A stretch of DNA of 64,000 bases, from contig NTJG01000007.1 in assembly GCA_002324875.1 (NCBI GenBank), forward strand, positions 1 through 64,000. The letters are read 5' to 3'. Under the pieces are notes generated by a model. It saw only the letters and a program-made list of their open reading frames with translations. It was not told the DNA's origin and made no database searches. Positions 54,158-57,985 of the stretch are shown here, piece after piece. How positions within the stretch are numbered: position 1 is the stretch's first letter; every line of letters begins with the position of its first letter. This DNA comes from Lysobacteraceae bacterium NML93-0793 (GTDB lineage: Bacteria; Pseudomonadota; Gammaproteobacteria; Xanthomonadales; Xanthomonadaceae). A program made the translations under genes and the position numbers.

Positions 54158-55774
54158 ATGACCGGCGTTTCCGAATCACCAATCACCCATCACGAATCAC
54201 TGCTCCACCGCGACAAGATCCTGATCCTCGACTTCGGCGCGCAGTACACGCAGCTGATCGCCCGCCGCATCCGCGAGCTGGGCGTCTACTGCGAAATCTG
54301 GGCCTGGGACCACGATCCGGCCGAGATCGCCGCGTTCGCGCCCAAGGGCATCATCCTGTCGGGCGGCCCGGAATCGACGACCGAACACGGCTCGCCGCGC
54401 GCACCGCAGGACGTCTTCGACAGCGGTCTGCCGCTGCTCGGCATCTGCTACGGCATGCAGACGATGGCCAAGCAGCTCGGCGGCGAGACCGAAGCCGCCG
54501 ACGCGCGCGAATACGGCCACGCCGAAGTCGCCATCGTCGCCAAGGACAGCCTGTTCGAAGGCCTGAGCGATCACGCCGGCGCCCAGCGTCTCGACGTGTG
54601 GATGAGCCACGGTGACCACGTCAGCGCCGCACCGCCCGACTTCACCGTCACCGCCAGCACCGACCGCGTGCCGGTGGCCGCGTTCGCCAACGAGGACAAG
54701 CGCTGGTACGGCGTGCAGTTCCATCCCGAAGTCACCCACACCAAGCAGGGCCAGGCGCTGCTGCGCCGCTTCGTCGTCGACATCTGCGGCTGCGCCACGC
54801 TGTGGACCGCCGCCAACATCATCGAAGACCAGATCGCCCGCGTGCGCGAGCAGGTGGGCAGCGATGAGGTGATCCTCGGCCTGTCGGGCGGCGTGGATTC
54901 GTCCGTCGTCGCCGCGCTGCTGCACAAGGCGATCGGCGAGCAGCTGACCTGCGTGTTCGTCGACACCGGCCTGCTGCGGCAGGGCGAGGGCGACCAGGTC
55001 ATGGCCACCTTCGCCGATGCCTCCAGCGCGCATGGCCTCGGCGTGCGCGTGATCCGCGTCGACGCGCGCGAGCGCTACTTCAGCGCGCTCGCCGGCGTGA
55101 GCGACCCGGAAGCCAAGCGCAAGATCATCGGCAACCTGTTCGTCGAGATCTTCGACGAAGAGTCGAACAAGCTCACCAACGCCAAGTGGCTGGCGCAGGG
55201 CACCATCTATCCCGACGTCATCGAATCGGCCGGCAGCAAGACCGGCAAGGCCCACGTCATCAAGAGCCACCACAACGTCGGCGGCCTGCCCGAACACATG
55301 AAGCTGGGCCTGGTCGAACCGCTGCGCGAGCTGTTCAAGGACGAAGTGCGGCGCTTGGGCGTCGAACTCGGCCTGCCGCGCGAGATGGTCTACCGCCACC
55401 CGTTCCCGGGCCCGGGCCTGGGCGTGCGCATCCTCGGCGAGGTCAAGGCCGAGTACGCCGAGATTCTGGCCAAGGCCGACCACATCTTCATCGAAGAACT
55501 GCGCCGCGCCGACCTCTACGACAAGACCAGTCAGGCCTTCGCCGTGTTCCTGCCGGTCAAGTCCGTCGGCGTCGTCGGCGACGCCCGCGCCTACGAATGG
55601 GTGATCTCGCTGCGCGCCGTGGAGACCATCGACTTCATGACCGCCCACTGGGCGCACCTGCCCTACGACTTCCTCGGCCGCGTCTCGAACCGGATCATCA
55701 ACGAAGTCCGCGGCGTCTCGCGCGTGGTGTACGACATCAGCGGGAAGCCGCCTGCGACGATCGAGTGGGAGTGA
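54158..55774 (+). CDS. guaA: GMP synthase (glutamine-hydrolysing), N-terminus encoded by repeat DNA, 3' end probably exchanged
   Basis: 538 residues. Class I glutamine amidotransferase: Cys in [12 protein letters not shown], His/Glu in [13 protein letters not shown]-PPase domain [11 protein letters not shown]-terminal dimerisation domain with [14 protein letters not shown] and [15 protein letters not shown] precedes the ATG at 54158. Residues 5-15 ([11 protein letters not shown]) are encoded by a dispersed AATCACCAATCACCCATCAC repeat and are absent from the usual GuaA start (M...DKILILDFG). From 55310 to the stop the sequence is repeated at 57527-57985 (see there). Confidence 0.95.
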
Positions 55775-55924
55775 GGCGAGGTTCCACAATGCCTGGAATG
55801 CGGACCGGCGCGCATACAGCCGGAATCTAAAGCGCCGATGCGCCACCCCGCTTACAGCAACTGATTGGACGCGTTTTCTAAGCTGAGACTTATATTTCTT
55901 GCGCCGGTCTTGCCATCTTTGCAT

Positions 55925-55946
55925 AATCTAAGCTTCTGCTTAGATT
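55925..55946. promoter_or_regulatory. HipB operator overlapping the hipBA -10 region
   Basis: AATCTAAGC-TTCT-GCTTAGATT, a perfect 9-bp inverted repeat 12 bp before hipB. It overlaps CATAAT (55922-55927), which lies 17 bp from TTGCGC (55899-55904). A second half-site, TTCTAAGCTGAGACTTA, lies near 55876-55892. This fits autorepression by HipB. Confidence 0.75.
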
Positions 55947-55958
55947 TCGGGGTGCGCC

Positions 55959-56204
55959 ATGCAGGTCAAGTTGGAAACGGCCGGCGAGATCGGGCAGTGG
56001 ATACGGGCTGTCCGCAAGTCGCAGGGGATGCGGCAGGATGATCTGGCTGCCCTGGTCGGGACGAGCCATGTGTTCCTCGGGGACGTCGAGCGCGGCAAGG
56101 AGTCCGTGCAGTGGGGGCGGCTGTTCTCGGTGTTGCGGGAGTTGGGGATCGAGGTCCGTGTGGACCTGCCGCTCGATCGAACACCCGACGCCGGATCGCC
56201 ATGA
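55959..56204 (+). CDS. hipB: HipB-like XRE antitoxin
   Basis: 81 residues. A helix-turn-helix of the Cro/CI type at about 10-65: IGQWIRAVRKSQGMRQDDLA, ALVGTSHVFLGDVERGKESV. It would bind and neutralise HipA and repress the operon. The stop overlaps the hipA start by four bases (ATGA), the usual coupling for hipBA. Confidence 0.88.
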   Translation: MQVKLETAGEIGQWIRAVRKSQGMRQDDLAALVGTSHVFLGDVERGKESVQWGRLFSVLRELGIEVRVDLPLDRTPDAGSP

Positions 56205-57454
56205 GCACACCTGGAGCTCGCCGCCTCGAGCTTCTGCTGGACGAGCGCCGGGTCGGTGAACTGCGCGAACAGGGCAACGTCTGGGCACTGGCCTACGACC
56301 CCGACTGGCAAGCAAGCGGCTTCGACCTCGCGCCTGGCCTGCCGAGAGCGGAGGGTGAACTGGTCGACGGTGCGAGCCATCGGCCGGTGCAATGGTTCTT
56401 CGACAATCTGTTGCCTGAAGAAGGCGCGCGAACTCTGCTCGCGCAGGATGCAGGCCTCGATGCTGCAGATGCCTTCGGGCTGCTCACGCGTTTCGGGCCG
56501 GAATCGGCTGGCGCATTGACGTTGCTGTCAGCCGGCCAGACGCTCGAGGAGGCGAAGCTCAGGCCTCTGGCCGATGCCGAATTGTCCGCGCGCATTCGCA
56601 ACCTGCCGCGTGTGCCGTTGGACCACGCGGCGCCCAAGCGCATGTCGCTGGCGGGCGCGCAGCACAAACTGCCCGTCGTGGCGCTCGACGGGCAGCTGTG
56701 GGAACCGGTGGGGCGCGCGGCCTCCAGCCATCTGCTCAAGCCGGATCACGAGCGACGGGACGATTACCCGCACAGCGCCGCCAACGAATGGTTCTGCATG
56801 CAGCTGGCCCATGCCTGCGGTTTGCCGGTGCCGGGCGTCGCACTGCGTCGCGTGCCGGAGCCCATCTATCTGGTGCGCCGTTTCGACCGCGTGGGCAACG
56901 GCCTCGACGCGCGCAGGCTTCACGCGCTCGATGCCTGCCAGCTGCTGTCGCTCGATCGCATCTACAAGTACTCGCAGGCAAGCGTCGAACGTCTGGTCGA
57001 GTTGATCGATCTGTGCAGGCGCCCCGGCGCGACCCGCCTCGCCCTGCTGCGCTGGCACTGCTTCAACCTGATGATCGGCAACGGCGACGCGCACCTCAAG
57101 AACCTCAGTGCGCTGGTGACTTCGGCGGGCATCGAGCTGGCACCGCATTACGACCTGCTCAGCACCGCCATCTATGTGGAAGCGGGGTGGGGCAGCTCGG
57201 AAAGCGTCATTCCCACCGGAGGCGAGCAGAAACTGGCGCGCATCGGACGGGGGCACGTACTGGCATTCGCGGCCGCACTCGGAGTGCCCGAACGGGTGGC
57301 CGCTCGGCACGTGCAGGCGCTGGTCGATGCAATCCTGCCCGCCGCAGTGCAGTTGCTGGGCCGGGCGGAAGCAAGCACCTTGCCTGGTGAGGCGCGCCTG
57401 TTGCGTCAGATCGTGCATGGGCCGGTCGCGGATATGACCCGGCAGTTGAAATAG
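56201..57454 (+). CDS. hipA: HipA-like serine/threonine kinase toxin
   Basis: 417 residues. N-terminal HipA domain (about 8-105: LLLDERRVGELREQGNVWAL, FFDNLLPEEGARTLL). Kinase core: MSLAGAQHKLPVV with Ser149 at the autophosphorylation position of the P-loop motif, SHLLKPDHER, NEWFCMQLAHACGLP, LVRRFDRV, catalytic NGDAHLKN (294-301) and metal-binding Asp318 in HYDLLST. All key residues are present, so it should be active. HipA toxins phosphorylate aminoacyl-tRNA synthetases (GltX in E. coli). Its GC and codon use are close to the host's, so the donor may be a relative. Confidence 0.92.
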   Translation: MSTPGARRLELLLDERRVGELREQGNVWALAYDPDWQASGFDLAPGLPRAEGELVDGASHRPVQWFFDNLLPEEGARTLLAQDAGLDAADAFGLLTRFGPESAGALTLLSAGQTLEEAKLRPLADAELSARIRNLPRVPLDHAAPKRMSLAGAQHKLPVVALDGQLWEPVGRAASSHLLKPDHERRDDYPHSAANEWFCMQLAHACGLPVPGVALRRVPEPIYLVRRFDRVGNGLDARRLHALDACQLLSLDRIYKYSQASVERLVELIDLCRRPGATRLALLRWHCFNLMIGNGDAHLKNLSALVTSAGIELAPHYDLLSTAIYVEAGWGSSESVIPTGGEQKLARIGRGHVLAFAAALGVPERVAARHVQALVDAILPAAVQLLGRAEASTLPGEARLLRQIVHGPVADMTRQLK

Positions 57455-57526
57455 TGGTCTCCTCGCATAGGCGCCTGTGCGCGTATGCGATGACATTCGC
57501 ACGGCGCGTGAGGTCCGAAGGTGCGG

Positions 57527-57985
57527 CTGGTCGAACCGCTGCGCGAGCTGTTCAAGGACGAAGTGCGCAGGCTCGGCGTCGAACTCGGCCTGCCGCGCGA
57601 GATGGTCTACCGCCTCCCGGGCCCGGGCCTGGGCGTGCGCATCCTCGGCGAGGTCAAGGCCGAGTACGCCGAGATTCTGGCCAAGGCCGACCACATCTTC
57701 ATCGAAGAACTGCGCCGCGCCGACCTCTACGACAAGACCAGCCAAGCCTTCGCCGTGTTCCTGCCGGTCAAGTCCGTCGGCGTCGTCGGCGATGCCCGCG
57801 CGTATGAGTGGGTGATCTCGCTGCGCGCCGTGGAAACCATCGACTTCATGACCGCCCACTGGGCGCACCTGCCGTACGACTTCCTCGGCCGCGTCTCGAA
57901 CCGGATCATCAACGAAGTCCGTGGGGTTTCGCGCGTGGTGTACGACATCAGCGGGAAGCCGCCGGCGACGATTGAGTGGGAGTGA
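57527..57985 (+). pseudogene. Displaced 3' end of guaA
   Basis: 459 bp matching 55310-55774 of guaA to the stop. Sixteen codons differ, all synonymous (for example CGG-CGC-TTG to CGC-AGG-CTC, AGT-CAG to AGC-CAA, CGC-GGC-GTC to CGT-GGG-GTT). One 6-bp deletion changes [11 protein letters not shown] to YRLPGPGLG. It has an open frame from a GTG at 57521, but no own promoter or catalytic domains. An intrinsic terminator follows 34 bp after its stop. It is most simply read as the native guaA end pushed downstream by the insertion. Confidence 0.85.

Follow-up and report, generated by a model that had tools for sequence, protein, structure and literature searches.

The 3' end of guaA, the GMP synthase gene, is a published attachment site for P4-type integrases (a label taken from the published papers) and, in Luteimonas and Xanthomonas, a hotspot for islands. 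GIsul2 and ICERspD18B insert at this gene end, at the core GAGTGGGA, and feature repeats of 19-20 bp (PMC9376610, PMC7775301); further guaA elements are described in a review, which also defines the cis-mobilizable element (CIME), where the integrase is lost while the attachment sites attL and attR are kept (PMC5704250). In E. coli, prophage e14 sits at icd (PMC5431349), and in Klebsiella michiganensis a HipBA pair stabilises a plasmid (PMC11487325). We describe a locus from Lysobacteraceae bacterium NML93-0793, where a complete hipBA toxin-antitoxin operon lies between an intact guaA and a second, truncated copy of the guaA 3' end. It is contained in a stretch of 64,000 nucleotides, the window, from a draft Luteimonas genome of 44 contigs (G000, contig C42; other genomes are denoted in the same way).

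The locus shares with GIsul2 and ICERspD18B the target-gene end, the core and a guaA left whole; while these elements carry an integrase and 19-20 bp attachment (att) repeats, the locus has no integrase and a second tail of about 460 bp. As in a CIME, a small cargo is found between two copies of the target-gene end, with the core at both ends; no integrase remnant is present, however, the repeat greatly exceeds att sites of the usual size, and element origin and mobility are, for the window, only hypothetical. As in K. michiganensis, a HipB-type helix-turn-helix (HTH) protein and a HipA kinase-type toxin are encoded in one operon, but the window pair is chromosomal and a stabilising effect is hypothetical. 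Site and genes are therefore of known kinds, while the long spare tail is unusual. The original prediction, made from the sequence alone, had not considered guaA as an integration site. The parts of the locus, in window coordinates, are the following.

54143..55774, plus strand: guaA, intact GMP synthase gene; open reading frame (ORF), homologous along its length to guaA of relatives
55763-55770, plus strand: core GAGTGGGA in the guaA end; core position scan
55775..55872, no strand: 98-bp spacer 3' of guaA, without a guaA-type terminator
55877..55944, plus strand: presumed hipBA control region; two palindromes, read from the sequence
55959..56204, plus strand: hipB, antitoxin and presumed repressor, 81 aa; HTH_3, 6.3e-07
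56201..57454, plus strand: hipA, kinase-type toxin, 417 aa; Couple_hipA and HipA_C
57455..57520, no strand: right spacer, 66 bp, unique within the genus sample
57521..57985, plus strand: copy 2, second guaA 3' end, 5'-truncated; 6-bp deletion, open 154-aa frame
57974-57981, plus strand: core GAGTGGGA ending copy 2; core position scan
58017..58045 (about), plus strand: terminator-like hairpin of the guaA type; folding and relatives, consensus scan silent
58228..59118, plus strand: mrr-type restriction gene, resident right flank; Mrr_cat, common to G376 and G415

The guaA stop codon is at 55774, and the last 464 bp of the gene are called copy 1. Copy 2 (57528-57985, its start being placed at about 57521 by eye) aligns with guaA 55311-55774 at 94.8% identity over 464 columns (E = 3e-211). 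A recurrence of the last 465 bp at 57527-57985 had been predicted: the recurrence stands, with the lengths corrected to 464 bp and 458 bp. Codon comparison agrees with the prediction that 16 codons differ, all synonymously (18 nucleotides, no non-synonymous change), and that the downstream copy carries a 6-bp deletion, changing HPF to L. The copy 2 frame is open and contains the GMP_synt_C domain only. Under neutrality, where a random change is expected to be synonymous in 27% of cases, the probability of finding 18 out of 18 is about 7e-11. Because all 18 differences are synonymous, the divergence arose while both tails belonged to working genes. The tails differ at 18 of 458 positions, copy 2 and copy 1 from G324 at 12 and 14, respectively; between pairs, among the eight relatives compared, distances range from 8 to 31. 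The tail distance is thus at the between-species level, and copy 2 is no recent local duplicate, in line with the predicted divergence of functional genes in different lineages, as opposed to local decay.

The hipBA-free arrangement, with the terminator directly after guaA, had been proposed as a check, and is found in two relatives, G376 and G415, which feature guaA, a like terminator region and the same mrr. Identity to the window is 87.6% over 314 bp (G376) and 75% over 294 bp (G415) in the terminator region, 86.9% and 89.0%, respectively, in mrr DNA. Relative to this arrangement, the window locus has gained 2.2 kb. Across our sample of 51 other Luteimonas genomes (one genome per species), no match was found either to the 55775-55872 spacer, whose presence behind guaA in relatives had been named as a possible refutation, or to the right spacer at 57455-57520.

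A G+C-rich hairpin with a T-rich tail is found directly 3' of copy 2 (about 58017-58045), and a like hairpin lies behind guaA in all six relatives folded (G376, G415, G022, G023, G001, G025). Behind copy 1, inspection and folding revealed no hairpin with a T-run. A consensus terminator scan of 55600-58300, on the other hand, reported none, fewer than the 1.4 found in shuffles, which counts against a terminator behind copy 2; we think that the scanner's maximal stem absorbs part of the T-run, a putative cause of this zero. The predicted terminator after the downstream copy only is thus backed by the hairpins and contradicted by the scan. Since copy 2 keeps the resident terminator and mrr downstream, the arrangement favours copy 2 as the displaced host tail. 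In the best tail tree, copy 2 joins G294, G324, G022, G415 and G376 (89/91), with copy 1 outside; a grouping of both copies as recent sister duplicates, the other refutation named in the original prediction, was thus not observed.

Integrases are frequently found at this site in relatives. In G324, an integrase gene (Phage_integrase, Arm-DNA-bind_3) starts 302 bp behind guaA; among 16 Xanthomonas genomes, drawn non-randomly from match lists, eight feature a full-length or nearly full-length integrase 294-309 bp behind guaA, and a ninth a 46-residue remnant. No guaA-type tyrosine integrase was found in the G000 genome (best match 29%), no integrase remnant in the insert, and no such integrase from the insert on to about 76 kb. 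The core ends both copies and occurs nowhere else in 55001-104000 of the contig; since nearly all guaA seen have it (of those checked, all except that of G422), its presence is no evidence by itself. Each of the ten genomes with an integrase or remnant (G324 and nine Xanthomonas) gave one guaA 3' match at E <= 1e-12, and no long second tail. A search for distal att sites in six of the ten, over 35-62 kb behind guaA (for G324, with an additional 40 kb across the record end), gave, beyond bare cores, only an 11-bp repeat in G282. As no long tail is seen beside integrases, the 465-bp tail is better accounted for by one-sided homologous recombination than by plain integration, which alone probably does not explain it.

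Second guaA tails are rare. Tails of any length are present in three of the 52 Luteimonas genomes (G000, G035, G025), and in five of the 395 genomes of a family sample (G000, G035, G130, G349, G373). In E. coli, 5375 of 5426 genomes give a match, with a second place in one, and the WB61 match falls in two pieces; this comparison would miss short or diverged tails. Long guaA tails, or hipBA at guaA, were not found reported in the open-access literature searched, by which their absence is not shown.

Tail length varies among loci: 465 bp in the window, 535 bp in G035, about 880 bp in G349. In G035, from Luteimonas, another HipBA lies between guaA and the second tail, which carries an 8-bp insertion and is followed by an integrase; the G035 HipA is 61% identical to a second HipA of the G000 genome, and does not match the window hipA at 1e-15. 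In G349, from Xanthomonas, PsyrT and PsyrA (1.4e-247 and 1.9e-117) lie between guaA and the tail, which is followed by a guaA-type hairpin sequence; before PsyrTA lies a stretch of 13 residues, 10 of them identical, with a weak likeness to the start of an integrase (E 0.55). As a second example G349 is limited by an N inside the second copy, and by a guaA split over two contigs. A complete toxin-antitoxin pair is thus present in all three readable long-tail loci, a small number, noticed afterwards. The G035 and G025 tails show amino-acid changes and frameshift or heavy decay. Short decayed tails are found in G130, 101 bp long at 76%, and in G025, 130 bp long at 79%; G373, where one tail lies at the start of a contig and a piece of 59 bp is also present, is not interpretable.

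In E. coli WB61 (NZ_CP020025.1:3244568-3245299) the guaA 3' end is found in two joined pieces, 732 bp in all, possibly a partial tail copy, and a hypothetical protein is annotated beside guaA. Citrobacter plasmids H44 and H45 (217 and 62 kb) match the C-terminal part of guaA, one of them in two places, and no gene is listed there. The decayed 130-bp tail of G025 (L041:4816-4944, minus strand; 14958-15086 in guaA orientation) lies about 10 kb behind guaA; the sequence after it resembles the one that immediately follows guaA in G008, and by eye a small antitoxin-like gene begins in each of them. In G035, guaA is found on two contigs (C55 and C27; L034 and L035), which are 99.9% identical over at least 4376 bp before they diverge; this may be a real duplication of the region, a strain mixture or an assembly effect.

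To explain the window locus we lean, with restrained confidence, towards a one-sided homologous gain of a guaA-hipBA stretch, which displaced the resident tail. The ancestral order would have been guaA, terminator and mrr, as in G376 and G415. DNA of another lineage, in which the hipBA operon followed a guaA 3' end, would have entered and recombined by homology within guaA, which stayed whole; the far end of the incoming DNA would have been attached about 465-473 bp upstream of the resident guaA stop, in a one-sided, homology-facilitated step; the resident tail and terminator would have been left downstream as the truncated copy. The guaA-hipBA donor that we infer may first have arisen via a guaA-targeting P4-type element, whose integrase has since gone. 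The variation in tail length among loci is counted in favour of this explanation. A comparable displacement is known for e14, which brings its own icd 3' end in place of the resident one; there an integrase acts, and the exchanged icd end, about 165 bp, is much shorter than the window tail. That incoming hipBA and guaA end displaced the host end was already the reading of the original prediction, and a plausible one: the empty site, the species-level distance and the terminator and mrr behind copy 2 speak for it, while the direction is unproven.

Several observations weigh against this reading. In the approximately unbiased (AU) test, a sister pair of tails is not rejected (p = 0.212), so that the suggested comparison of the two 3' end phylogenies separates the tails in the best tree only. 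Trees of guaB and of the guaA 5' part do not settle the position of the window host, and folD joins the window to G022; the attempt to derive the polarity from these trees failed. Because the AU test and the nearby gene trees are not decisive, the polarity rests mainly on the terminator and mrr behind copy 2. A T at -309 is common to both tails and absent from the other 17 alignment rows, and the site table shows no substitution between the tails from -417 to -243: for part of both tails, the pattern may reflect common descent or conversion. A donor with guaA followed by this hipBA was not found in the 52 Luteimonas genomes. The order in G035 differs: there a guaA-type hairpin sequence follows copy 1, and the second tail is the one followed by the integrase. 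Finally, the single match in each of the ten integrase genomes comes from a search scoring only two candidates per genome.

Of the other explanations, a site-specific, CIME-like event survives best, although we consider it unlikely. hipBA, with its own guaA fragment and core, would have been inserted as a circle, by an integrase acting from elsewhere, through a crossover at GAGTGGGA; copy 1 would then belong entirely to the host, and copy 2, as far as the core, would be element-borne, which is the reverse of the polarity originally predicted. Both tails end in the core, the likeness of the flanks stops immediately 3' of the stop codon, the end of guaA is known to serve as an attB, integrases are common behind guaA in the family (8 of 16 Xanthomonas, and G324), and a possible integrase start remnant precedes the G349 cargo. 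Yet the core is present in nearly every guaA checked, the published att repeats measure 19-20 bp, and not about 460, the integrase-bearing relatives lack a long tail, and neither an integrase in the genome nor a remnant in the insert was found.

A single-crossover (Campbell) gain of a circle with hipBA and a 465-bp guaA 3' fragment is less probable still. It would yield exactly this order of parts, with the two tails as hybrids having reciprocal switch points, and the tails do in fact have a middle stretch without differences, which are found to either side of it; however, no source of such a circle was found, and the site table shows no clear reciprocal switch. We give little credit to an old local duplication of the tail, later split when hipBA was inserted, in which gene conversion maintained the similarity of copy 2: the common T at -309, the substitution-free stretch and the AU result would fit, but not the 18 synonymous changes out of 18, unlike what is seen in the G035 and G025 tails. 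An assembly error, conceivable for a draft in 44 contigs, is very improbable, as there is no N in 53000-60500, 18 sites distinguish the copies, the right flank runs on into the relatives' mrr, and the genome scores 100 for completeness and 0.15 for contamination.

In the cargo itself, hipB and hipA are complete, with hipB directly before and overlapping hipA. A palindrome, TCTAAGCTTCTGCTTAGA, is found at 55927-55944, and a weaker like site at 55877-55894, both read from the sequence; a palindrome like TCTAAGCTTCTGCTTAGA is also present in the G035:C2 relative. These are predicted hipBA operators, presumably bound by HipB. The closest solved chain to HipA is 4pu3 (E 9.1e-39), with the stretches SLAGAQHKL and GNGDAHLKN aligned, which we take to be the Gly-rich and catalytic HipA kinase motifs; HipA is accordingly predicted to have a kinase fold with both stretches, and is presumed to be a kinase toxin restrained by HipB. 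The toxin locus had been described as fused to the guaA 3' end; this does not hold, as hipB starts 185 bp after the guaA stop and the operon has its own operator-like palindromes, so that the two are adjacent. The insert is present once in the G000 genome. A relative of the hipBA unit, control region included (55873-57448), is found in G035:C2 (79.7% DNA identity, 84% for HipA); that contig, which has no guaA match, ends 324 bp upstream of the similar stretch. A 23-bp likeness of the control region to G009 post-guaA sequence was rejected, its score of 34 being reached or exceeded by at least 5 of 200 shuffles (up to 40).

Were the two tails to recombine, hipBA would be lost and a single guaA would remain; crossovers 3' of the 6-bp deletion, about 80% of the tail length, would keep the HPF motif in guaA. 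Because such recombination would remove it, hipBA may, as a hypothesis, hold the duplication by harming the cells that lose it. The recurrence of the arrangement with HipBA in G035 and PsyrTA in G349 suggests, without proving it, that these pairs persist because their loss is punished. More generally, and quite speculatively, long guaA-tail repeats might normally be lost fast by homologous deletion, surviving only around a toxin-antitoxin cargo that punishes loss; a unit bounded by such repeats could also be mobile, as a circle that needs no integrase and enters any guaA through homologous recombination. If so, the window, G035 and G349 would be natural footprints of post-segregational killing on a chromosomal duplication. 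The reason why chromosomes keep toxin-antitoxin pairs is still debated; as hipBA lies alone between direct repeats whose recombination removes it, the addiction idea gives a measurable prediction at one locus. The locus also illustrates how the guaA hotspot is used in Luteimonas and Xanthomonas, and is a warning that an additional gene tail may represent an allele that was displaced, and not a duplicate in decay.

The DNA behind guaA carries restriction or defence genes in several Luteimonas genomes: HsdM in G020, G022, G023, G024, G031, G376 and G415, a DpdE/DrmD-like helicase in G011 and a cytosine methylase in G294, as seen with chosen proteins and not in a census. In G000, mrr is followed by a type I restriction island that comprises hsdM, hsdS and a Fic gene, and in which a long ORF, at 63913-67377, is the presumed hsdR. 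The interval that separates hsdS from this ORF (62079-63916) contains an ORF weakly like PADLOC PDC-S32 and a SoFic-like Fic-domain gene. On the far side of the island, beyond the window, a second, unrelated hipBA pair is found (G000:C42:67987-69674; L047:3987-5674). Its HipA is 95% identical to HipAs of G022 and G023, two genomes with other restriction genes, where they lie 10-13 kb behind guaA. In the guaB-guaA gap (53935-54075), inverted-repeat units (TCATTCCCGCG...GCGGGAATGACG) are visible by eye; similar units, again by eye, also lie behind guaA in G035.

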